Positions 397-40,384 of a stretch of 40,384 bases of DNA are shown here, piece by piece (position 1 is the stretch's first letter; each line of letters begins with the position of its first letter). The notes beneath the pieces are model-generated. The model did not search any database. It was not told the DNA's origin and was given only the letters and a program-made list of their open reading frames with translations. Position numbers and translations under genes: made by a program. The DNA lies in the IMG/VR virus record IMGVR_UViG_3300048583_000339, positions 1 to 40,384 of that record. One strand, 5' to 3'. This stretch comes from a virus.

Positions 397-3276
397 ATGT
401 CGCGTCGCATCTCCCTGCCCATGGGTTCCATGGTGATCCGCAATGCAACGGGGCTGCTGACCGCGACGCCCACCCCGACGCCGACGCCGACGATTGCCAC
501 CACGCCCGGCACCAGCGTTGTCCAGCATGGCGTCACCATGCTGCTGTCAACGTCGATGCAGCGCGGCCAATACGCCAATGGCGACTGGTTCGTTTTCAAC
601 CCGGCCGGCGGCGCCGGTTTCAGCTTTGTGGCCGGCGGTTCGCATGATGCCGTAACAGATGCGCTGGGAAGTTGGTTTTTTCCAACCGAAGCGTGCAGTT
701 TCACCGATTCAACCAATGCGGTCACCGTGACCGGCCACCGGGCGACGGTAGGGCAGCAGGTTATGTTCATGTCGATCGTTGCGACGACCGGCATTGTCAC
801 CGCAACGATTTACTTTGTCCGCGCCATCCTGACATCCAGCACCTTCACGATTGCCGCCACACCCGGCGGCGCCGAGATCAATCTGGTGACCAACGGCACC
901 GGCACTATCCGCATGTATGGCGCGACCGAGCGGCGGCGCAATGGCGCGATGGTCAACCCCGGAAATTCGGCGATTGCCTATGGCGGCACCGGATCGGTGG
1001 CGACCAACCACCGGGGCAACAGTTTCGACCAAGGCTATGACCAGTTGACCCCGCCGACCGGCATCAGTTCATCGACCGGGCAGGGTTACAACGGCGCGTT
1101 GAACGTCGCCGAGGCCAAGACTTTTGCGCCCGGCGAGGAGGGCAGTTACGTCAAGGCGGTTTCGCGGTCGGCAACGCCGGATCGCGTGGGCCGCGATGCG
1201 CTGTCGGAATTGATCGTGGTGACGGTGGTCAACACCCTGCCGCCGGTCGGGTCGCTGCGCCCGCCGGTCGCGGCGACAAGCAAGACGCCGGTCATCAACC
1301 AGTCGCAGATCAGCCGGTCGCGCTTCCTGTCGTTGAGCCGCGCGACCAACAGCGCCGCCCCGGCCAATCTGACAACGCTGATCGGTTACACCACCAAGCA
1401 CTGGCAGTGCGGCTTCACCAATGGGCTATTCACGCGCGCTATCACGCCGTCCACTAACCAGGGGGTGATCGGGCAGGATTACGGGGCCGATTACGCCAAG
1501 CATTTGAGCGATTGCGCGGCGGCGCTGCACTATGATTTTGCGCCGGCGGAACTCGACCAACTGGCGATGAACCTGTGCGTCATCGGTGCGGACATCGCCT
1601 ATGTGGCGGCGCAAGGGGCCGAGTTCCCCGGGGGCACCACCACCGGCGGCGGCGGGGCCAACCAATTCTGGAAAATGCCGGTGGTGCTGGCGGCGCTGCT
1701 GGCGCCGACATCGCCGGCCTATGCCATAATGGCGGAATACTGCGATTTCGCGCAGCACCAGATTTTCGCCAACGACACCCAATTGTTCCGGGTGTCACAG
1801 ACCGAGTTCGACACACCGCGCCACACCGGCGACGGCAGAACGCGCAACGCCTATCTGCCGTATATGATTGGATCTCCGGAATGGGGATCGTCGGTCAAAG
1901 GCCGGGTCGATGGCGATGGCGGCGACAAATACGCCGGCGCCCAATTCGATGTTGCCTATCGGGATTTCAACGCCTCCCCGCAGACGGTGTTCTGGTGTTC
2001 GGCGGCGCGAGCAACCGGCGGGCTGGCGTTGGTCAACAATCCGCGATGGGACGCCTATCACCGCCGCTATGCCGATTGGAGCAACAATCTGGCGCTGAGC
2101 ACATCCAGTAACACCACCACTTTTGGCCGAGAGTTTCTGGCCGACAACATCCCTGCCTATCCGGCGACCGCGCCCGTTCTGGTGGCGCGTTATGCGCAGG
2201 AAAACTGGGTATATCTGGAATTCGACCGGCCGTTGCGGGTCAATGAAGCCAAGCCGGCGGTGGGCGATTTTGCCGTGACGGTGGACGGCCCAAGCGCGAC
2301 CCTGACCGGCACGGTGCAGGTATTCGACACCAAGATTGCAGTGCAACTGGCCACGCCGCTGACGGCATCAACACAAGCGGTGACGATCGGATACACGGCC
2401 GGCGCCAATCGTGTTCGCACGCTGGGCGGCACCGAGGTTCCAACTGTAACGGCGGGCGCGGCAACCAATCAGACGCTGTTGCCGCCACCACCGGCGGGGA
2501 CGATCGAATATGTCGCGGGCGACGGCAAATCGTGGCTGTACGCGCCCTATCTGGCGACCACGCCGGCCGAGCCCGGGATGGGCAAGCTGTTGGTCGGAGT
2601 GCAGTTCAAATTGACCGCGGCGCCGGCATCCGGCCAGTCGATCATCGGCAACATCAGCGACAATTCCGCCGGTCTGCGCGTGTTCAACGCGACATCGACA
2701 GCGGCACGCTTGAACCACCGGCAGGGGGTAAGCGGCGGCGCCGGCACCAATCGCCCCAGCACGATCCTGACCGGGCTGGTATCCGGCAGCGAAGCGATCA
2801 TCTGGTTCCTTGTCGATGGCGATCAGGTGGGCGCAGCCAACAACAACCGCGCCTCGATCAACGGCGTTGCTTCGCCCACCAGTTCATCGACCGATGCGCA
2901 GGGCAACACTTTCGACCCGTTTGCAGCGTTGATGACGTACGGAATTTCCCCGCTGGCACGCGGCGGCACAACCCGCCTGGATAATCTGGCTGAAAATGCC
3001 TTCGGCGGCGGCATTTCGCGCATCTTTATCGATTGGGGACCGCCGGGCGACACGGTAATTCCGTCCAACCCGGTGGGAACGAATTTCGGGCTGAGCTTCA
3101 ATTGGGGCGATTACGGCGAACTGGTCACCGGCCGGCGGCCGAAATTCTTTTTCCCGATCAACCGCGCCGATGCGCTGGCCGCCGGGATCGTCAACCGCGG
3201 CACGGTGCGCAACTGGGTTCTGGCTGCAACGACGCGCGATGCCGATGAAGTCACCCCGGTGTTCGTGACGGTTTAG
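397..3276 (+). CDS. Large multidomain protein, possible carbohydrate-active or adhesin protein
   Basis: A 959-residue protein starting immediately after the terminase stop, with a GGGAG ribosome site 8 bases before the ATG. Four zones can be seen. Residues about 1-230 are Gly/Thr/Ser-rich beta-type sequence with a TPTPTPTPT run near residue 24. Residues about 330-570 are helical, with many Trp and aromatic residues and a PEWG motif near residue 498; this recalls alpha-barrel carbohydrate-active proteins. Residues about 590-690 resemble a SwmB-like Ig-type repeat (VYLEFDRPL, then VGDFAVTVDG, then IAVQLATPL). Residues about 700-959 look like a LamG/concanavalin-type beta-sandwich. Such a protein is unexpected between terminase and portal genes. 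It could be a head decoration, a virion depolymerase or a displaced fibre. No catalytic residues were identified, and the domain assignments come from memory of family patterns. Confidence 0.55.
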   Translation: MSRRISLPMGSMVIRNATGLLTATPTPTPTPTIATTPGTSVVQHGVTMLLSTSMQRGQYANGDWFVFNPAGGAGFSFVAGGSHDAVTDALGSWFFPTEACSFTDSTNAVTVTGHRATVGQQVMFMSIVATTGIVTATIYFVRAILTSSTFTIAATPGGAEINLVTNGTGTIRMYGATERRRNGAMVNPGNSAIAYGGTGSVATNHRGNSFDQGYDQLTPPTGISSSTGQGYNGALNVAEAKTFAPGEEGSYVKAVSRSATPDRVGRDALSELIVVTVVNTLPPVGSLRPPVAATSKTPVINQSQISRSRFLSLSRATNSAAPANLTTLIGYTTKHWQCGFTNGLFTRAITPSTNQGVIGQDYGADYAKHLSDCAAALHYDFAPAELDQLAMNLCVIGADIAYVAAQGAEFPGGTTTGGGGANQFWKMPVVLAALLAPTSPAYAIMAEYCDFAQHQIFANDTQLFRVSQTEFDTPRHTGDGRTRNAYLPYMIGSPEWGSSVKGRVDGDGGDKYAGAQFDVAYRDFNASPQTVFWCSAARATGGLALVNNPRWDAYHRRYADWSNNLALSTSSNTTTFGREFLADNIPAYPATAPVLVARYAQENWVYLEFDRPLRVNEAKPAVGDFAVTVDGPSATLTGTVQVFDTKIAVQLATPLTASTQAVTIGYTAGANRVRTLGGTEVPTVTAGAATNQTLLPPPPAGTIEYVAGDGKSWLYAPYLATTPAEPGMGKLLVGVQFKLTAAPASGQSIIGNISDNSAGLRVFNATSTAARLNHRQGVSGGAGTNRPSTILTGLVSGSEAIIWFLVDGDQVGAANNNRASINGVASPTSSSTDAQGNTFDPFAALMTYGISPLARGGTTRLDNLAENAFGGGISRIFIDWGPPGDTVIPSNPVGTNFGLSFNWGDYGELVTGRRPKFFFPINRADALAAGIVNRGTVRNWVLAATTRDADEVTPVFVTV

Positions 3277-28209: not shown

Positions 28210-28914
28210 TCAGGCGTCGATGTTGCGCTGTTCGACGGTGAAGCTGACGGCCACCACCCAGGGGTTTCGGTCCCATGCGTCAGGGCCGTTGATGCTGTTC
28301 CAGAGGCGCTCGTATCCCAGCACATGCGAGAATGTGCCGCCCAGGTCGATCTTGTGGGCATTCGAAAGCCGGTGATCGAATTGCCGATCAACTGCCTCGG
28401 CGCCTTCGGCCAGCGCGTCAGCCTCGCTGATGTCCTGCAACCGCTGCACCCGCACGTCTGTCACCAGCAGGGTTAGGCGCGAGGCCCAGCGGGGCATGTG
28501 GATCGACACGCGCACCTTGCCGTGCTGGTCGCAGTTGTCGCGGTCGGCCTCATACCAAATGCGGCTGTAGCCGGGGCCTACAAGCTGGCTTGGGCGCAGT
28601 TCGTCTGCAACCTTGCTGGTGCGCCACGTTTCCTTCACCCAAAGCCGGTCGCCGGGTCGATACGGTGCAAGCCCAAGAAAGCGGTTGTATCCTTGCGGTC
28701 CATTCTTTTGAGCCCAAATGCCGCTTTCCGCCCATTGGTTCGCAACGCCCAGCGCGGGCACATCGGGCGGTGCAAACCATGTTTTGACGACATCGTGAGG
28801 CGCGTTCAACACAGGTTGCCACCCGTTTTTCAACACCCGCCGCGTCTGGGTCTTTGTGCCATCGAGCAGGGCGCGCACCATCGGCGCGCTGAACAGGATC
28901 GGGCGGTCGGTCAC
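28210..28914 (-). CDS. ASCH-like phage protein
   Basis: A 234-residue protein starting at GTG 28914, which overlaps the stop of the upstream gene (GTGA). PILFSAPMVRALLDGTKTQTRRV at the start, YRPGDRLWVKETW in the middle and VTDVRVQRLQDISEADALAEGAE, then LWNSINGPDAWDRNPWVVAVSF towards the end, form the known pattern of a prophage protein related to ASCH/EVE-type RNA-binding domains. Its function in phages is not known to me; binding of nucleic acid or a modified nucleotide is a possibility for this fold. It is co-transcribed with the integrase. Confidence 0.75.
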   Translation of the reverse strand: MTDRPILFSAPMVRALLDGTKTQTRRVLKNGWQPVLNAPHDVVKTWFAPPDVPALGVANQWAESGIWAQKNGPQGYNRFLGLAPYRPGDRLWVKETWRTSKVADELRPSQLVGPGYSRIWYEADRDNCDQHGKVRVSIHMPRWASRLTLLVTDVRVQRLQDISEADALAEGAEAVDRQFDHRLSNAHKIDLGGTFSHVLGYERLWNSINGPDAWDRNPWVVAVSFTVEQRNIDA

Positions 28915-31648: not shown

Positions 31649-31956
31649 GCGGGTTCATCGTGCCTTCGGATGATGTGCGGTGGTGCGCGGCGCTGGCGAC
31701 GGCGTTGTCGGTGTGTTGCGCGGCGCCGGTGTCCGACCGGGTGGCGGAAGTGCGGGCGTTGATCGCCTCGCCGCCGGTGCAGATGTTGCCGGTGATGTGG
31801 CACGCCCTAATCGGCGCGGCGGAAAAATGGCTGGGCCAGTGCGATGCGGCGAAGCCGGGCGATCTGTTGCCCCAGTTCGCCGCCATCCGCCTGATCGAAA
31901 TGGCTTTGCGCGACAAGCCGGTGCCGGTGCCGGCCTGGGCGGAGCGGTGCGCATGA
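31645..31956 (+). CDS. Early protein of unknown function
   Basis: A 103-residue helical protein with several Cys residues (VRWCAALATALSVCCAAPVSDRV) and Trp in VMWHALIGAAEKWLGQCDAAKP. No family is recognised. Coupled upstream by ATGA (31645) and downstream to a short peptide ORF at 31953, in a tandem-repeat stretch. Confidence 0.6.
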   Translation: MSGFIVPSDDVRWCAALATALSVCCAAPVSDRVAEVRALIASPPVQMLPVMWHALIGAAEKWLGQCDAAKPGDLLPQFAAIRLIEMALRDKPVPVPAWAERCA

Positions 31957-32020
31957 GCCGGCAAAAAAACGTCGGAGCGGTGCGCATGAGCCGGCAAAAA
32001 ACGTCGGAGCGGTGTGCGTG
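31941..32020 (+). repeat. Tandem 32-33 bp repeat with start codons
   Basis: Unit 1 (31941-31973, 33 bp) and unit 2 (31974-32005, 32 bp) are identical except for one extra A in an A-run. A third, partial and diverged copy begins at 32006. Each full unit contains GCGCATGAGCCGG, so the start/stop overlap signal itself was duplicated. Confidence 0.85.
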
Positions 32021-32021
32021 A
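31953..32021 (+). CDS. 22-residue coupling peptide in tandem repeats
   Basis: ATG at 31953 overlaps the previous stop. The reading frame runs through both repeat units (MSRQKNVGAVRMSRQKTSERCA) and stops at 32019-32021 inside the GTG of the next gene (GTGA). It probably exists to carry ribosomes from one gene to the next after the duplication, rather than as a functional protein. Confidence 0.4.
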   Translation: MSRQKNVGAVRMSRQKTSERCA

Positions 32022-33662: not shown

Positions 33663-33958
33663 GCGGCCAGCTCGACCCTGCCGTGCAGGAAGCGTTGCGG
33701 GTGGCGGGGTTTGCCCTGTTCCAGTCGATCAACCATGAAATCAACCGGCAGATCGCGCGGATGGTGGCGGGCGGGTTTGCGCCCGAAGTGGTGGCGCTGG
33801 CGGCGATCAACGCCAGCGCGACGTTGCTGGCCAATGCCCTGACCAGCCAGATTTGCGCCGACCGCCGCGAGGAAGTGACCGCCGATATTGTCGGCGAAGT
33901 GACCGCCGCGGTGCGCCACGGGATGCGGCCGCACGCCGGGCCGGTGACGATCCAGTGA
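33659..33958 (+). CDS. Helical early protein of unknown function
   Basis: A 99-residue protein: VQEALRVAGFALFQSINHEINRQIARMVAGGFAPEVVALAAINASATLLANALTSQI, then a charged stretch with REEVTADIVGEV. Mainly amphipathic helix with no membrane segment. Starts within the previous stop and ends within the GTG of the thioredoxin-like gene. No family is recognised. Confidence 0.55.
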   Translation: MSGQLDPAVQEALRVAGFALFQSINHEINRQIARMVAGGFAPEVVALAAINASATLLANALTSQICADRREEVTADIVGEVTAAVRHGMRPHAGPVTIQ

Positions 33959-34323
33959 CGGCCGCCGACCTGCCCGCCCTGCGCGCCCTGACCGATGCGG
34001 ATTTTGCCGCGGCGGTGTCGGTGCCGGGGGCGACGCTGGTGCATTTCACCGCGACCTGGTGCGCGCCGTGCACGCGGGCGGCGGTCGAAGTGGCCGGGCT
34101 GTTCGCCGATCTGCGCGGGCGCAAGCGGGCCGCGCGCGCGCCAGCGATTCCTGTGGTGATGACGGCCGACATCGATGCGGCGCCGCACGCGGCCAACGCC
34201 GCCGGCCTGACCGGGGTGCCGTGCCTGGTGCTGTACCGCGACGGGGCGCGCGCCGCCCAGCTGACCGGGCAATGGTCGCGGCAAACCTTACGCGAATGGT
34301 TCGATGGGGTGATGGAGGGATGA
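33955..34323 (+). CDS. Thioredoxin-like protein
   Basis: A 122-residue protein with a thioredoxin fold pattern: a strand TLVHFTATWCAPC, whose WCAPC places the redox Cys pair at residues 41 and 44, then a long helix, a strand IPVVMTADIDAA, and GVPCLVLYRDG with the cis-Pro. The order of strand, active site, helix, strand, cis-Pro and strand is the thioredoxin core. It starts at GTG (GTGA overlap). Lying directly before the sliding clamp gene, it might feed electrons to nucleotide reduction or to sulfur chemistry, or serve polymerase processivity as host thioredoxin does for T7. Confidence 0.8.
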   Translation: MTAADLPALRALTDADFAAAVSVPGATLVHFTATWCAPCTRAAVEVAGLFADLRGRKRAARAPAIPVVMTADIDAAPHAANAAGLTGVPCLVLYRDGARAAQLTGQWSRQTLREWFDGVMEG

Positions 34324-35468
34324 CGGTGACGAAACAGGCGAAGATCGCGGTGCCGGTGGTGCTGGAACGGGCCGCGCTGGCCAAGGTGCTGGCGGTGGTG
34401 ATGGGGGCAGTTGACCGCCATGCGACGATTCCGGTGCTGGGCAATGTCGCGTTGCGGCATGAAAAGGGCGTGCTGACGATTGCAGGCACCAATCTTGACC
34501 AGGTGTTGACGGTCGATGTCGACACCGGCGGCGGCGATGATTTCGCCACCACGGTCAACGCCGGGCGACTGGCGGCGCTGGTGAAGGCGATGACCAGCCC
34601 GGAAGTGGCGCTGTCGATCAGCGACAAGGGCAAGCTGGTGGTGGCCGGCGGCGGCAGCGACGCGGTGTTGCACACCATCGCGCATGACGATTTCCCGGCG
34701 GCGCACGGCGTGCCGGAAGTCATCAGCAGCATCGACCCGGTGCGCTTTGCCGCCGATCTGGCGTTTGTGATGCCGGCGGTGTCGACCGACGAAACGCGCT
34801 ATTATCTGAACGGTGTCTGCCTGTGGCCGCGCGGCGGTGATGACGAAGATCTGGCGGTGGTGGCGAGCGATGACCACCGGTTGCACATGGTGTCGATGCC
34901 GCGCATTCCGGCGGTGTGCGACCTGCCGCGCCCGCCGATTTTGCCGACACGTTTCTGTGCGATGATGCGGCAGTTGATCGCGGCGAATGCCGGGGAAGCG
35001 ACCGCCGATTTCGGCCTGACCAACGGCAAGGCGGTGTTTCGCATCGGGCGGTGGCAGCTGACATCAAAGTTGATCGATGGGACATTCCCGGATTGGTCGC
35101 GGGTGGTGCCGGCGCCCGGCGGGGTTGAGGTGACGGTTTTGGCCAAGGCGTTGACCGATGCGGTGGGCACGGTGGCGGCGATCACCAGCGAAAAAGTCAG
35201 CGCGGTGACCCTGACCCATGATGACGGGGCGCTGGTCACTTCATGCGTGTCGCCGGAGCATGGCGAGGCGCGGGCACGGGTGCGCGGCGGCACGGTGCCG
35301 GCGTTCGATTTCCGCATCGGGTTCAACCACAAATATCTGACCCAGGTGATGCGCATTTTCGCCGGGGCCGATGTCGCCGCCCAGTTTATCGACCCCGCCG
35401 CGCCGGTGATCTGGCGGTGTCCGGATGTGCCGGGGCGGTTGGTCGTCCTGATGCCGATGATGGTGTGA
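34320..35468 (+). CDS. dnaN: DNA polymerase III beta subunit (sliding clamp)
   Basis: A 382-residue protein, close to the usual DnaN length of about 366-375. Three clamp domains can be traced. Recognisable segments are LERAALAKVLAVVMGAVDRHATIPVLGNVAL at the start, TIAGTNLDQVLTVDVD, RYYLNGVCLWP, VVASDDHRLHMVSM, IDGTFPDWSRVVP, and the end LVVLMPMMV in place of the usual VVMPMRL. A phage-encoded clamp would tie host or phage polymerase to the phage template. The start overlaps the thioredoxin-like stop (ATGA). Well supported. Confidence 0.93.
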   Translation: MTVTKQAKIAVPVVLERAALAKVLAVVMGAVDRHATIPVLGNVALRHEKGVLTIAGTNLDQVLTVDVDTGGGDDFATTVNAGRLAALVKAMTSPEVALSISDKGKLVVAGGGSDAVLHTIAHDDFPAAHGVPEVISSIDPVRFAADLAFVMPAVSTDETRYYLNGVCLWPRGGDDEDLAVVASDDHRLHMVSMPRIPAVCDLPRPPILPTRFCAMMRQLIAANAGEATADFGLTNGKAVFRIGRWQLTSKLIDGTFPDWSRVVPAPGGVEVTVLAKALTDAVGTVAAITSEKVSAVTLTHDDGALVTSCVSPEHGEARARVRGGTVPAFDFRIGFNHKYLTQVMRIFAGADVAAQFIDPAAPVIWRCPDVPGRLVVLMPMMV

Positions 35469-35470
35469 CG

Positions 35471-35668
35471 ATGGCCGGCAAGGTGCAGGTGGTCGAGGCG
35501 GCGGCGGCCTTGCCGCGGTTTCGGATGTGGCGGCGGCGGGGCGGGGTGATGGCCTATGCCGAATATGCGCTGGGGCGGCAGATGGTGTCGGCGACGGTCG
35601 GGCCGTTCGACACGGCGGATGCGGCGGCGCGGGCGTTGCTGACGGCGACGCGGCAGGTGGTGCTGTGA
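35471..35668 (+). CDS. Small basic protein after the clamp
   Basis: A 65-residue basic protein: QVVEAAAALPRFRMWRRRGGVMAYAEYALGRQMVSATVGPF, ending with a hydrophobic helix. Two bases separate it from the clamp stop, and its end overlaps the next GTG (GTGA). A DNA- or clamp-binding role could be imagined, but nothing in the sequence proves it. Confidence 0.55.
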   Translation: MAGKVQVVEAAAALPRFRMWRRRGGVMAYAEYALGRQMVSATVGPFDTADAAARALLTATRQVVL

Positions 35669-36018
35669 GCGTGTCCGGGGATGCGCCGGTGGGGCGGGTG
35701 GTGCCCGATGCGGGGCAGCGGGTGCTGGCGATTGCGGTTGACGCGCTGGGCCGGCCGCGCGCCGAAATTCTGGGGCGGTGCCGGATGCCGGGGGTGCTGC
35801 GCCCGCGGTGGGCGGCGATGGTCGCGCTGCGCCGGGCCGGCATGTCCTATTCGGTGATCGGGCGGCGGATGCGGCGCAACCACACATCGGTCATTCACGC
35901 CGTGGCGCGCGGCGAGGCGATGGCGGCGCGGGATGCGGAATTCGCCGCCCTGGTCGACCGGATGGTGGCGGCGATCGTGCCGGCGGCGGCCGTGCCGGTC
36001 GATTCCGGCGAGGGCTGA
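35665..36018 (+). CDS. DnaA domain IV-like DNA-binding protein
   Basis: A 117-residue protein starting at GTG 35665. RPRWAAMVALRRAGMSYSVIGRRMRRNHTSVIHAVARGE matches the C-terminal DNA-binding domain of DnaA in pattern: a first helix, SYxxIG, then RxHTSVIHA, the signature that reads the DnaA box. No AAA+ domain is present. It may bind DnaA-box-like sites at the phage origin or at host oriC. Clamp and primase genes nearby support a replication role. Confidence 0.8.
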   Translation: MSVSGDAPVGRVVPDAGQRVLAIAVDALGRPRAEILGRCRMPGVLRPRWAAMVALRRAGMSYSVIGRRMRRNHTSVIHAVARGEAMAARDAEFAALVDRMVAAIVPAAAVPVDSGEG

Positions 36019-36022
36019 ACCC

Positions 36023-36226
36023 ATGACAAGCGGGGATGATCGCGCCGATGCGGCGCAACAGGAAACTGCCCCCCAAATTCGGGGCGCAATCCGGGGTGGG
36101 GCGGTTTGTCGGCCGGGGGAACATCGTTGCCTGGCGCTGATGCTGGGGTTTTTTGCCATTGAGGCGACGGGCGCCATCGATGACCTGACCCGAGCGGCGG
36201 TGGCGCGGTGTGAGGCGCAACTGTGA
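36023..36226 (+). CDS. Small early protein of unknown function
   Basis: A 67-residue protein (MTSGDDRADAAQQETAPQIRGAIRGGAVCRPGEHRCLALMLGFFAIEATGAIDDLTRAAVARC). Gly/Ala-rich, one helix at the end. Its stop overlaps the primase GTG (GTGA). No family is recognised. Confidence 0.5.
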   Translation: MTSGDDRADAAQQETAPQIRGAIRGGAVCRPGEHRCLALMLGFFAIEATGAIDDLTRAAVARCEAQL

Positions 36227-37401
36227 CCGGTGGCGATCTGTTCGAGCGCGCCAAGGCGGTTGACCTGGTGCAGCTGGTGCGGGCGCTGGGGGTGAAGTTG
36301 CGCGCTGGCGCGCGGGCGCGGGGGTTTTGTCCGATCTGTCGGGCGGGGGAAAAGTCGGGTTCGACGCCGTTTTCGGTGGATGGAGCCAAGGGGCTGTTCA
36401 AGTGCTTTGCCTGTGGCGCCGCCGGGGATGCGGTGCAGTTCGAGCAGCTGACCGGCGGGTGGGCGAGTGCGGCGGATGCGGCGCGGGCGTTGCTGGGCGA
36501 GGTGCGGGGCGATGCGGTGCGCGTGGCGCGACCGGCGGCGGTGCGGGTGGTGCCCGAGGCACGCGGCGATGCGGTGTTCGTTGATGGTGCGGCCGTGGCC
36601 GCCTGGCTGTCCGAACACTCCGTGCCGGGGATGGCGTCGCCGGTGTTCGACTGGCTGGCGGCGCGGGGGTTGATGCCGCTGGCCATCGATGGGGCGATTG
36701 ACCGGTTGCGGTGGTGTTCGGCGGCGCCCGTGGCGGCCTGGGCGGTGCGGGGGGCGGGGGATGAGGTGCGGCCGCCCGCCGGCGTGCCGCGGTGCGGGGC
36801 GATGGTGGCGCCGTTGGTGCGCGGGGATGGCAGCGCGGCCGGGGCGGTGCATGTGACCTATCTGGCGCCGGGCGGGCGGGCGAAGGCGGATCTTCGGCGG
36901 CGGGATGGATCGGCGATGCCTTCGCGCAAGATGTTCGGTGCGGCGCGCGGCGCGGGGTTTCCGCTGACCGATCTGGACGGGCCCGGGCCGTTGCTGGTCG
37001 GCGAGGGCATCGAAACGGTGTGGGCGGTGGCGCAGGGCTGGGAGGGGCCGGTGCGGGCGGTGGCGGTGCTGTCGCTCGATAATCTGCAGGGCAGGGTGGT
37101 GAAGGATGACGCCGGCAGCTGGCGGATCGATGCGCCGGAAGCCGACCCGGCCAGGCCGCCGTTCACGATTCCGGCGGCGGGTGACGTGGTGATCCTGTGC
37201 GATGCCGATATGGCGCCGGTGCCGGCCCTGGTGCGCGACGGGCGGCGGGGCAAGCCGGTGCAGGTGCGGCTGACGGCGTTGCAGCGGGCGGAGCTGTGCG
37301 GGGCGCTGGCGGCGCAGGCGTGGCTGCGCGCCGGGGCCACCAGCGTGCGGGCGATCAGGCCGCGCTTGGGGCTGGATTTCAATGATGCGGTGCGGGGATG
37401 A
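36223..37401 (+). CDS. DNA primase, CHC2 zinc finger plus TOPRIM
   Basis: A 392-residue protein starting at GTG 36223. Residues 36-64 hold a CHC2-type zinc site, CPIC (36, 39) and CFAC (61, 64), with SFxxxKGLFKCF between. Residues about 257-330 form the TOPRIM part: LLVGEGIETVWAVA with Glu261, and VVILCDADMAP with Asp327 and Asp329. A FNDAVRG-like end is typical. This is the layout of phage primases of the toprim domain family. It would lay RNA primers, working with the helicase encoded two genes downstream. Confidence 0.9.
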   Translation: MTGGDLFERAKAVDLVQLVRALGVKLRAGARARGFCPICRAGEKSGSTPFSVDGAKGLFKCFACGAAGDAVQFEQLTGGWASAADAARALLGEVRGDAVRVARPAAVRVVPEARGDAVFVDGAAVAAWLSEHSVPGMASPVFDWLAARGLMPLAIDGAIDRLRWCSAAPVAAWAVRGAGDEVRPPAGVPRCGAMVAPLVRGDGSAAGAVHVTYLAPGGRAKADLRRRDGSAMPSRKMFGAARGAGFPLTDLDGPGPLLVGEGIETVWAVAQGWEGPVRAVAVLSLDNLQGRVVKDDAGSWRIDAPEADPARPPFTIPAAGDVVILCDADMAPVPALVRDGRRGKPVQVRLTALQRAELCGALAAQAWLRAGATSVRAIRPRLGLDFNDAVRG

Positions 37402-38630
37402 GCGATCTGCTATCCAGCGCCAGCGAAATCGCCATGGTCGGCGCGGAAGCTGTCGAACTGACGCTTCAATCGCTGCGGGCTTATTGGGACCGCCACGATC
37501 ATGTTTCTGTCGCATGGTCCGGGGGTAAGGACAGCACGGCGGCATTGACCGTGTTAATTCACTTGATCGATGCCGGGCTGCTGCCGCAGCCGCAGCGGCT
37601 GTGGGTTTTCTATGCCGACACAAGGCAGGAACTGCCGCCGATTCAGGTTGCCGCCGATGCGATGATCGTGAAGCTGCGCCAGCGGAACTGGATCACTGTC
37701 GAGGTGGTGCGCGCGCCGGTCGATAAGCGGTTCCTGGTTTATATTCTGGGGCGCGGTGTACCGCCGCCGAACAACAACACGCTGCGCTGGTGCACCCGGC
37801 AGATCAAGGTCGACCCGATGGCGGCGGCGCTTGAAATGGCGCTTGAGCGCATTCCTGGCAGTGTGTTGATGATCACTGGCGTGCGCCAAGGCGAAAGCGC
37901 CATCCGCGATGGTCGCATCAGCATGTCGTGCAGCAGAGACGGCGCCGAATGTGGGCAGGGCTGGTATCAGCAGGTGCTGCCGCAGGCGAAGGGTATTCGC
38001 GGCCGGATGGCCACGCTGGCGCCGCTGCTGCACTGGCGGGTTTGTCAGGTCTGGGACTGGTTGAAGATTTGCGCGCCGCAGGCGGCTTTTGGTGGGTGGG
38101 ACACGGCAATTCTTGCCGATGCCTATGGTGGTGACGATGCGACCGAGATTGAAGCGCGCACGGGCTGCATCGCCTGCCCGCTGGCGTCTGAAGATGTCGC
38201 CTTGAAAACCATCGTGGCCATGCCGCATTGGGCCTATCTGTCGCCGTTGCTGCGCCTTCGCCCGCTGTATCGTTCGCTGCGACTGATGGAGAACCGGCTG
38301 CGGAAAGCCGAACCGGAAGTGTTGAAGGATGGAAGCCTGTCTAAATCGGGCCAGCGGGCCGGGCCGATCAAGCTGGAAGCGCGACTGTCTGCGCTTGAAA
38401 CGGTGCTGGAAATCCAGCGCGAAGTGAATGCTGCGGCTGATCTGCGGGGCAGGCCGCGGCTCGACATTCTGAACGGCGAGGAAGAAGCGCGCATTCGCCA
38501 GCTGATTGCCCAAAACACTTGGCCCCAGCGGTGGGACGGCACCGAGGTCAGCGCCGATGCGTGGCTTGATCGCATCAATGAGGATGGCACCGTCGAGCCG
38601 ATCCTGTTCAGAGAGCTGGTCGGCCGATGA
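37398..38630 (+). CDS. DndC/PAPS-reductase-like sulfurtransferase protein
   Basis: A 410-residue protein. SGGKDST at 41-47 is the PP-loop, followed by FYADTRQELPP, RWCTRQIKVDP with Cys132, GVRQGESAIRDGR at 161-173 (close to the G(V/I)RxxES signature of DndC), and Cys178, Cys185, and GCIACPL with Cys257 and Cys260, which may hold an iron-sulfur cluster. Such proteins activate sulfate or sulfur for transfer; DndC acts in DNA phosphorothioation. No dndA, B, D or E neighbour is present. The base composition looks less GC-rich than in the adjoining primase gene. It is overlapped on both sides (ATGA). Confidence 0.8.
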   Translation: MSDLLSSASEIAMVGAEAVELTLQSLRAYWDRHDHVSVAWSGGKDSTAALTVLIHLIDAGLLPQPQRLWVFYADTRQELPPIQVAADAMIVKLRQRNWITVEVVRAPVDKRFLVYILGRGVPPPNNNTLRWCTRQIKVDPMAAALEMALERIPGSVLMITGVRQGESAIRDGRISMSCSRDGAECGQGWYQQVLPQAKGIRGRMATLAPLLHWRVCQVWDWLKICAPQAAFGGWDTAILADAYGGDDATEIEARTGCIACPLASEDVALKTIVAMPHWAYLSPLLRLRPLYRSLRLMENRLRKAEPEVLKDGSLSKSGQRAGPIKLEARLSALETVLEIQREVNAAADLRGRPRLDILNGEEEARIRQLIAQNTWPQRWDGTEVSADAWLDRINEDGTVEPILFRELVGR

Positions 38631-40150
38631 CCCGCCCTATCGAAATCAGCCTGGTCAACAATGAAGTGTTGGCGTGGAAAGAGACGAACGACCTGGGCAA
38701 TGCGGAGCGGTTGCAGGCGCGGTTCGGGGCGAAGCTGTGCTGGTTGCCGGTCGGCGGGTGGGCGTTCTTTGATGGCACGCATTGGTCGCTGGCCGATGGC
38801 GCGCGGCAGGCGGTGCTGGCCGCGCAAAAGACTGTCCGGGCTATCCGTGATGAGGCGGATGCTTTGGAGCGTCTGGCCGAAGCGCCTGAACGCTGGTTCG
38901 CGGGTTGCAGTGTCGAAATGCTGACCGAGCGGGCGATCAGCCTTCGCAAGCATCAGGTGACATCGGGCAACACACCGAAGATCAACGGGATGCTGGCGCA
39001 GGCCGCCAATCTGATGATGGTGCCCGATGAGGAATTCGACACCGACCCGCTGGCGCTCAATGTACGGAACGGGACTTTGCGGTTTGTCAAGGGGGATGAA
39101 GGGCTGGAGGTGACGCTTTCGCCGCATGATCCGGGGGACCGGTTCACCAAATTGGCGAATGTCACCTATGATCCGAAGGCGCGGGCGCCGAAGTGGGAGG
39201 CGCATCTTTCGACCTGTCTGGCCGATGACAGTGCGCGGGCGTTTTTTCAGGATGCGCTGGGCTATACGATGACCGGCCTGACCACCGAACAATGTGTGTT
39301 CATGGACCAGGGGCGGGGTGGCGACGGCAAGTCGACCGCCATGATGGCGTTTGCGCACATGCTGGGCAGCTATGCCGCCACGGCGTCGATCAATTCCTTC
39401 CTTTCGAACGGCAAGACGGCCGATGGATCGGGGCCGTCTAGCGACCTGGCGCGGTTGCATGGCGACATCCGCATGGTGTCGGTGGGTGAGCCGCCGAAGG
39501 GGTCGACGCTCAACGACAGCCGGATCAAGATCTGGACCGGCAGCGGCGATGTGGTGGCGCGCAAGTTGCACAAGGATGATTTCAGTTTCAAGCCGCGGTC
39601 GAAGCTGTGGTTCGAATGCAATGGCCGGCCGAAGATTTCGGGGGATGATGATGGCATCTGGCGGCGCATCCTGATCCTGTTGTGGCCGCACCAGTTTCCG
39701 GTGGAGCAGCGGGTTCTGGGGTTTGAGGAGCAGCTGTATGCGGAAGCCGCCGGCGTGCTGAACTGGGCGATCGTCGGGCTGGGGCGGTGGTTGATGGCGG
39801 GGAAGCTAAGCAAGCCCGCGGTGGTGACGGCGGCGGTGGCGGAATATCGCCGGGCGAACAACCATTTCGGGGACTGGCTGGCGGAGTGCACCATTGCGGA
39901 GGCGGGGGCTTCGACGCTCTCGAAAACGCTTTATGCCAAATACAAGGAATGGTGCGAGAAAAACGACATCGGCGAACGCGACGTGATGTCAAGCACGAAA
40001 TTCGGGCTGGAGCTGGGCGACCGGCAGTTCATGACCCGGAAGAATGGCCAGGGGAACATCGAGCGGCGGGGGATTCGGCTCAAGACCGCGCTGGAGGATG
40101 ATGCGACGCTGGCGGCTTATGATGCGATGGCGGAGGAGGTGGGGCGGTGA
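38627..40150 (+). CDS. SF3 helicase of the P4/D5 primase-helicase family
   Basis: A 507-residue protein. GRGGDGKST at 229-237 is Walker A; DIRMVSVGEPP near 284 is the Walker B-like strand; SRSKLWFECNGRP near 325-338 is sensor-like, and RRILILLWPHQFP follows. The N-terminal part has the D5-type lead-in (LCWLPVGGWAFFDGTHW, LALNVRNGTLRF). This is the C-terminal half of P4-type primases without a primase domain, so it probably unwinds DNA for the separate primase encoded upstream. Overlaps the DndC-like gene by 4 bases (ATGA). Confidence 0.88.
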   Translation: MTRPIEISLVNNEVLAWKETNDLGNAERLQARFGAKLCWLPVGGWAFFDGTHWSLADGARQAVLAAQKTVRAIRDEADALERLAEAPERWFAGCSVEMLTERAISLRKHQVTSGNTPKINGMLAQAANLMMVPDEEFDTDPLALNVRNGTLRFVKGDEGLEVTLSPHDPGDRFTKLANVTYDPKARAPKWEAHLSTCLADDSARAFFQDALGYTMTGLTTEQCVFMDQGRGGDGKSTAMMAFAHMLGSYAATASINSFLSNGKTADGSGPSSDLARLHGDIRMVSVGEPPKGSTLNDSRIKIWTGSGDVVARKLHKDDFSFKPRSKLWFECNGRPKISGDDDGIWRRILILLWPHQFPVEQRVLGFEEQLYAEAAGVLNWAIVGLGRWLMAGKLSKPAVVTAAVAEYRRANNHFGDWLAECTIAEAGASTLSKTLYAKYKEWCEKNDIGERDVMSSTKFGLELGDRQFMTRKNGQGNIERRGIRLKTALEDDATLAAYDAMAEEVGR

Positions 40151-40227: not shown

Positions 40228-40384
40228 ATGACGACATACAATGGCATCCACCGTGGCAACCTCCGGCTGAAAGCCGGTGATGTGGTGGAGGCGCTGACCG
40301 AGGTCACCGGCTATGTCGATGTGCAGCCGGGCGCCACGCTGACGGCCCCGGCGCTGACCGAGGTCACCGGCTATGTCGATGTGC
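40228..40384 (+). CDS. Repeat protein, 5' end (partial)
   Basis: An ORF with a strong ribosome site (GAGGAG, 7 bases before the ATG). It begins MTTYNGIHRGNLRLKAGDVV and then runs into 20-residue repeats of the form ALTEVTGYVDVQPGATLTAP, recalling leucine-rich-like or beta-solenoid phage repeat proteins. The gene runs off the end of the window in the second repeat. It lies between the helicase and, presumably, the terminase end of the genome. Confidence 0.7.
   Translation, partial: MTTYNGIHRGNLRLKAGDVVEALTEVTGYVDVQPGATLTAPALTEVTGYVDV
40291..40384 (+). repeat. 60-bp tandem repeat at window end
   Basis: The 34 bases at 40291-40324 are repeated exactly at 40351-40384, giving a 60-bp period (20 residues in frame). 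The window ends within the second copy. Confidence 0.9.

Follow-up and report, generated by a model that had tools for sequence, protein, structure and literature searches.

An orphan DndC-type PP-loop protein of temperate phages and its putative role in phage DNA modification

A gene for a DndC- or PAPS-reductase-like protein, located between two replication genes of a phage, raises the question of what such an enzyme does when it is encoded on its own. The window analyzed here is the entire IMG/VR virus record IMGVR_UViG_3300048583_000339 (40,384 bases), and the presence of integrase, anti-repressor and CII-like matches indicates that it represents a temperate phage. The gene (37398..38630, plus strand) runs from ATG to TGA and encodes 410 amino acids; its match to PHROG 12882 (E = 1.2e-207) and an abundance of 60-73% identical relatives exclude a chance open reading frame. 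It is flanked on the same strand by a primase-like gene upstream (36223..37401; CHC2 zinc finger, DUF7146 and a weak Toprim match) and a D5-type primase/helicase gene downstream (38627..40150), and both junctions are exact 4-base ATGA overlaps, in agreement with the start/stop overlaps described in the sequence-only reading. The surrounding gene run also encodes a DNA polymerase III beta clamp, a thioredoxin-like protein (33955..34323, plus strand; WCAPC motif) and a DnaA-C-like protein. The phage thus has its own clamp and its own DnaA C-terminal-domain protein near the primase (34326-35468 and 35665-36018); the clamp is also encoded in 10 further loci of our set, the DnaA-C protein in no other. 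At the far end of the window (40290-40384) an exact 35-base repeat, with its copies 60 bases apart, lies inside an ORF that is still open at the extreme end of the contig. The contig thus ends at position 40384 within a 60-base tandem duplication, where the assembly probably broke off, and genes past the D5-type helicase are therefore unseen.

The sequence-only reading had taken the protein to be made together with the replication machinery and its gene to differ in composition from its neighbors. The compositional difference holds towards the upstream primase (62.4% versus 73.9% GC) but not towards the helicase gene, which also has a GC content of 62.4%. A conserved tie to replication genes is not supported: the position of the gene varies among loci, and its adjacency to D5 helicases is weak (p = 0.036). 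Likewise, the thioredoxin-like gene that had been suggested as a possible source of reducing power does exist in the same operon (Pfam, 1.9e-12), but the other loci of the set yielded no relative of it, and we therefore rejected it as a dedicated electron donor. The protein is far more conserved than its surroundings, with no other gene family being common to more than 35 of 79 loci.

The conservation of the protein itself is clear. It matches the phrog_12882 profile over its full length (residues 10-404 on profile positions 10-403/404), PHROG labels this family phosphoadenosine phosphosulfate reductase, and PAPS_reduct (PF01507) is the only match in a Pfam search. We found 306 relatives in IMG/VR and 117 in GTDB species genomes; the 80 GTDB relatives examined belong mainly to Alpha- and Gammaproteobacteria, in addition to Hymenobacter and Tangfeifania, and prophage copies of the gene occur in both Pseudomonadota and Bacteroidota. 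Relatives with 60-67% identity are encoded by the Pseudomonas phages Dobby, D14A and phiC725A, the Rhizobium phage RR1-A and the Microcystis phage Mae-JY29, which share the same six cysteines with the window protein but differ in their gene neighbors. The gene is thus an ordinary member of an already catalogued phage family, which represents a separate, orphan variant among the DndC-type enzymes. In several Pseudomonas members (L083:8779-10209, L047, L076, L081 and L128) the protein carries an N-terminal extension of about 65-70 amino acids without a Pfam match.

An alignment of 164 family members bears out the motifs and the conserved-looking cysteines noticed earlier. The ATP pyrophosphatase motif (PP-loop) SGGKDST at residues 41-47 (37518..37538; this and the following positions are on the plus strand) has S41, G43, K44, D45 and S46 invariant in 164 of 164 members, and R76 and E78 are invariant as well. 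In the motif GVRQGES at residues 161-167 (37878..37898) only Q164 varies, the other six residues being invariant. Six cysteines are each present in 163 or all 164 of the relatives, with a single exception at C185: C132 in RWCT (37791..37793), C178 (37929..37931), C185 in ECGQG (37950..37952), C216 (38043..38045), and the pair C257-x2-C260 in GCIAC (38166..38177). Such near-complete conservation of the six cysteines and the PP-loop, in Pseudomonadota as well as Bacteroidota, indicates that catalysis is under strong selection.

Among named proteins the best match is DndC (PADLOC DndC, 5.9e-27; TIGR03183, 88.1 bits). Both proteins have the PP-loop, GxRxxES, RWCT and GCxxC motifs, and their alignment is long, extending to residue ~370. 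In an alignment with genuine Salmonella DndC, C132, C257 and C260 correspond to C146, C280 and C283, of which C280 is indispensable for the [4Fe-4S] cluster and its mutation abolishes phosphorothioation (PMC11662687). However, identity to DndC is only 25%, the score falls far below the curated TIGR03183 cut-off of 290 bits (family members in other genomes reach ~78-112 bits, true DndC proteins 570-680 bits), and the protein lies outside the DndC clade. The five-cysteine set of DndC (146, 262, 273, 280 and 283 in Salmonella) is incomplete: all 8 DndC sequences in the comparison have C262 and C273, whereas the window protein lacks both and has C178, C185 and C216 instead. The presumed Fe-S cysteine set is thus kept in its three-cysteine core, while two of the five DndC positions are missing and replaced. 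The C178/C185/C216 trio was not found in DndC, SspD or plasmid PAPS-reductase-like proteins and is private to the phrog_12882 family and the PAPS reductase of Thermus phage Tsatsa (PMC11437467), which has all six cysteines but shows only 36% identity over aligned positions, is shorter (352 amino acids) and is encoded by a different type of genome. The alignments suggest that each lineage may keep the three-cysteine core, while the additional ligand or persulfide carrier is specific to the lineage.

In phylogenetic trees comprising the phrog_12882 family, Tsatsa, DndC, DndC-like, SspD, plasmid, CysD and CysH/APS reductase sequences, the family and its sister Tsatsa form a single clade (support 99/99 in one tree and 98/91 in a second), which falls inside the DndC/SspD superclade, its order relative to SspD and single DndC-like sequences not being fixed. 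The motif combination of this superclade, a PP-loop SGGKDS together with RWC and RxGCxxC, is completely present in the window protein. An exclusive union with true DndC was rejected by the AU test (p = 0.0002). The second tree, to which the AU tests refer, leaves out four supposed CysH sequences that are wrong-strand ORFs. The SspD proteins and the PAPS reductases of BREX type 4 (BrxP) belong to the same superclade, and the three-cysteine core is shared with SspD; in contrast to these systems, the window contains no SspBC or BREX genes, the additional cysteines differ, and the profile scores are low (BrxP, 48.5 bits; SspD, PADLOC PDLC02782, 34.6 bits versus 307-456 bits in six strong SspD loci).

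The most obvious alternative is that the gene encodes an assimilatory PAPS or APS reductase, i.e. a CysH-type auxiliary metabolic gene channeling sulfite into cysteine synthesis during infection. The Pfam and PHROG names imply this, the literature mostly lists PAPS-reductase-like genes of phages as cysH auxiliary genes and treats them as sulfur assimilation (PMC10914622, PMC5463345), the fold is shared, and the cysteines of APS reductases align with the same C132/C257/C260 triad, which corresponds to their cluster ligands, C132 aligning with the second cysteine of the APS reductase CC pair. Yet the adjacent CC pair and the C-terminal ECGLH tail are missing, the protein's own ECG sits between GVRQGES and CxxC, the CysH model PRK02090 yields only 12 bits, and grouping with CysH/APS reductases was rejected by the AU test (p = 0.0015). 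An AlphaFold model (mean pLDDT 79.5, pTM 0.79) is confident in the PP-loop domain, but the cysteine loops have a pLDDT <50, and we rejected the model as a source of cysteine geometry. Its best Foldseek matches are an APS reductase, an FAD synthase, a CysD subunit, TilS and a PAPS reductase, but these matches cover the shared PP-loop domain only (query TM ~0.3); a search by sequence detected no relatives of the protein in the PDB. Profile scores, cysteine pattern, tree and AU test thus agree that the protein is DndC-like and not CysH-like, as the sequence-only reading had suspected, and its placement among CysH-type reductases is rejected. We rejected the CysH assignment on the basis of profiles, motif position and the AU test, and consider an assimilatory role extremely unlikely.

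The protein is also an orphan in the sense proposed at the outset. A PADLOC search of the other 49 called genes in the window detected no Dnd, Ssp or BREX partners (DndB/D/E, SspB/C), and dndB, dndD and dndE are not recurrent across 79 viral loci; unlike DndC, the protein is thus encoded without them. A PADLOC match labeled 'MTase_II' suggested a fusion of a PAPS reductase with a methyltransferase, but this was rejected: proteins of the DndC type are what the underlying profile PDLC03333 recognizes, a true DndC reaching 291 bits. Automatic defence annotation may therefore mislabel PAPS-reductase-like genes as methyltransferases through PDLC03333.

DNA methyltransferases encoded by separate genes are the only recurrent neighbors that we found for the PAPS-like gene. 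Among 107 immediate neighbors encoding at least 120 amino acids, 20 belong to the C5 DNA methylase family, compared to at most one of 107 more distant genes, for which this family is not among the 25 families listed. Where a viral locus holds a C5 methyltransferase, the two genes are direct neighbors in 20 of 28 cases (5.2 expected), and in the respective bacterial loci in 16 of 30 (4.6 expected); an antisense ORF at L134 was disregarded. Because the viral and bacterial sets have some prophages in common, the loci were collapsed at 85% identity of the PAPS-like protein to 79; adjacency was then found at 15 of 30 loci holding a C5-type enzyme (5.0 expected, p = 2e-4) and at 10 of 23 loci holding an N6/N4-type enzyme (3.5 expected, p = 8e-4). 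Annotated examples are found in Dobby, phiC725A, RR1-A, Mae-JY29 and the P. aeruginosa plasmid pF023. The C5 partners occur on either side of the gene and comprise at least two unlike enzyme groups, with an SPDC or an SSPC motif, respectively. No methyltransferase is located beside the gene in the window itself, and in roughly two of three non-redundant loci none directly adjoins it. The repeated adjacency favors DNA over RNA as substrate; however, accessory phage genes generally cluster, and the association may thus reflect only a shared anti-restriction island. That neighbors are otherwise unconserved is expected for a one-gene function drawing on host sulfur donors.

Several of the adjacent C5-type enzymes (among others L085:6743-8968, L008:5831-7759 and L083:10223-12286) show a conserved S-P-D-C, AWFSPDCKHFSK-like, at the site where canonical enzymes have Pro-Cys, and their specificity or chemistry may differ.

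We tentatively propose, with a probability of roughly 0.4, that the protein is a putative sulfurtransferase which depends on ATP and an Fe-S cluster and takes part in modifying phage DNA to counter restriction. By analogy with known families, C132, C257 and C260 would hold an Fe-S centre, and C178, C185 or C216 would contribute the fourth ligand and probably the thiol carrying a persulfide. Sulfur would be delivered by a host cysteine desulfurase of the IscS type, enzymes that can replace DndA (PMC11662687). The target would be activated through adenylation at the PP-loop, and phage DNA (at the backbone or a base) or a DNA precursor would be thiolated in the absence of DndD and DndE. Often produced next to a DNA methyltransferase, the enzyme would thereby help phage DNA to escape host restriction; DNA as the substrate and anti-restriction as the purpose are our guess. 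Known DNA phosphorothioation requires an ATPase and a DNA-recognizing partner (PMC12707154). Both are absent here, which leaves the DNA-binding part unexplained and counts against DNA thiolation. The missing counterparts of DndC C262 and C273 and the low model confidence at the cysteine loops are further points against the proposal. In its boldest version, a single phage protein would suffice for DNA thiolation: supplied with sulfur by host IscS and independent of DndDE or SspBC, it would place sulfur onto phage DNA or nucleotides. In many phages it would act jointly with a neighboring C5-type methyltransferase, often one with the unusual SPDC motif, and the product would be a sulfur-containing mark on a base or the backbone, of a kind so far undescribed in phages. 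In this full form we regard it as rather unlikely.

Two alternatives retain the catalytic PP-loop but change either the substrate or the chemistry. tRNA sulfurtransferases combining a PP-loop with an Fe-S cluster are an established class, and TilS, a tRNA-modifying PP-loop enzyme, is among the fold matches; the protein might thus be a phage tRNA thiolase following the logic of TtcA or TtuA, which adjusts translation or evades tRNA-targeting defences. Its nearest families by tree and profile are, however, DNA phosphorothioation enzymes, the TtcA model PRK10696 gives only 13 bits, cysteine positions are not shared with TtcA and the TtcA order of CxxC followed by a single Cys is not found, and the neighbors are DNA methyltransferases rather than RNA enzymes, all of which makes a tRNA target quite unlikely. 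PP-loop enzymes also adenylate substrates without any sulfur chemistry, which counts against a sulfurtransferase in general. NadE and GMP synthetase appear beside TilS in the fold search, and an adenylating or ligating enzyme that acts in base hypermodification next to a methyltransferase would fit the association with DNA methyltransferases. If neither a cluster nor a thiol were involved, six invariant cysteines including the ligand triad of DndC and APS reductases would be difficult to account for, and we consider this alternative unlikely.

The sequence-only reading had also suggested that the protein might imitate or block host Dnd systems. Such an anti-Dnd protein could be a DndC mimic poisoning host DndCDE or could give phage DNA a mark that protects it from DndFGH. 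Its DndC ancestry might be adduced for this, as might PMC10945359, which cites previous work for an anti-Dnd action of a phage PAPS reductase. DndC above the cut-off was detected in 5 of 61 carrier genomes compared to 11 of 469 sampled class members (6/240 and 5/229, each sample including its center genome), an excess uncorrected for genome size or completeness that we do not interpret because carrier genomes are larger than those in the class samples. The remaining 56 of 61 carriers lack DndC; neither a general dependence of the protein on host DndDE nor Dnd as its sole target is therefore tenable, and dependence on host Dnd was rejected. In addition, the invariant PP-loop and cysteines point to catalysis rather than mimicry. 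Imitating or blocking Dnd is thus not its general role, and an anti-Dnd function is very unlikely. The genomes in which DndC above the cut-off and a prophage with a phrog_12882-type protein occur together are L139/L201, L149/L202, L162/L227 and two more.

A regulatory role similar to that of IbrA or YbdN, altering gene expression in the lysogen, is suggested by the occurrence of YbdN-type PAPS-reductase-like proteins beside ParB-like partners, as in E. coli ybdN-ybdM. We consider it highly improbable: no ParB-like partner is among the recurrent neighbors, Pfam detected no DUF3440 match in the protein, and YbdN lacks the cysteine pattern and forms a very long branch in the tree. Sulfur transfer to DNA remains the reading that we prefer, at the tentative level given above.

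Apart from sulfur assimilation, phage PAPS-reductase-like genes have been treated as host-metabolism genes (PMC11318856) or as possibly DndC-related (PMC8092301), and have been described as deserving study (PMC11437467); in the literature searched we found no functional test of the phrog_12882 family. Temperate phages of Pseudomonadota and Bacteroidota widely carry members of this family, whose type of gene is routinely reported as cysH. The private six-cysteine signature provides a simple means to separate phrog_12882-type genes from true cysH. If the proposed role in DNA modification is true, inferences from environmental cysH genes need correction, and a compact counter-restriction chemistry could be tested in laboratory Pseudomonas phages.

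Several further observations concern related proteins and the remainder of the window. A distinct, related PAPS-reductase-like protein of ~800 amino acids is encoded on an IncHI2 plasmid and a Providencia plasmid (L240:3773-6157 and L243:3800-6199); in total, 1,112 plasmid records matched our query, nearly all with low identity. An Rfam search of the window gave no match. Directly before the portal gene lies an ORF of 959 amino acids (397-3276) with a sub-threshold Pfam repeat match and no PHROG match. A phrog_874 protein of unknown function (234 amino acids; 28210-28914, minus strand) recurs near the PAPS-like gene in a few loci, and its relative in L056 begins with a IIFSAPMIRALLAGRKTQTRR-like motif. 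Finally, tandem repeats of 32-33 bases (CGGAGCGGTGCGCATGAGCCGGCAAAAAACGT) at positions 31940-32021 extend from the final part of a small gene into the beginning of its successor.
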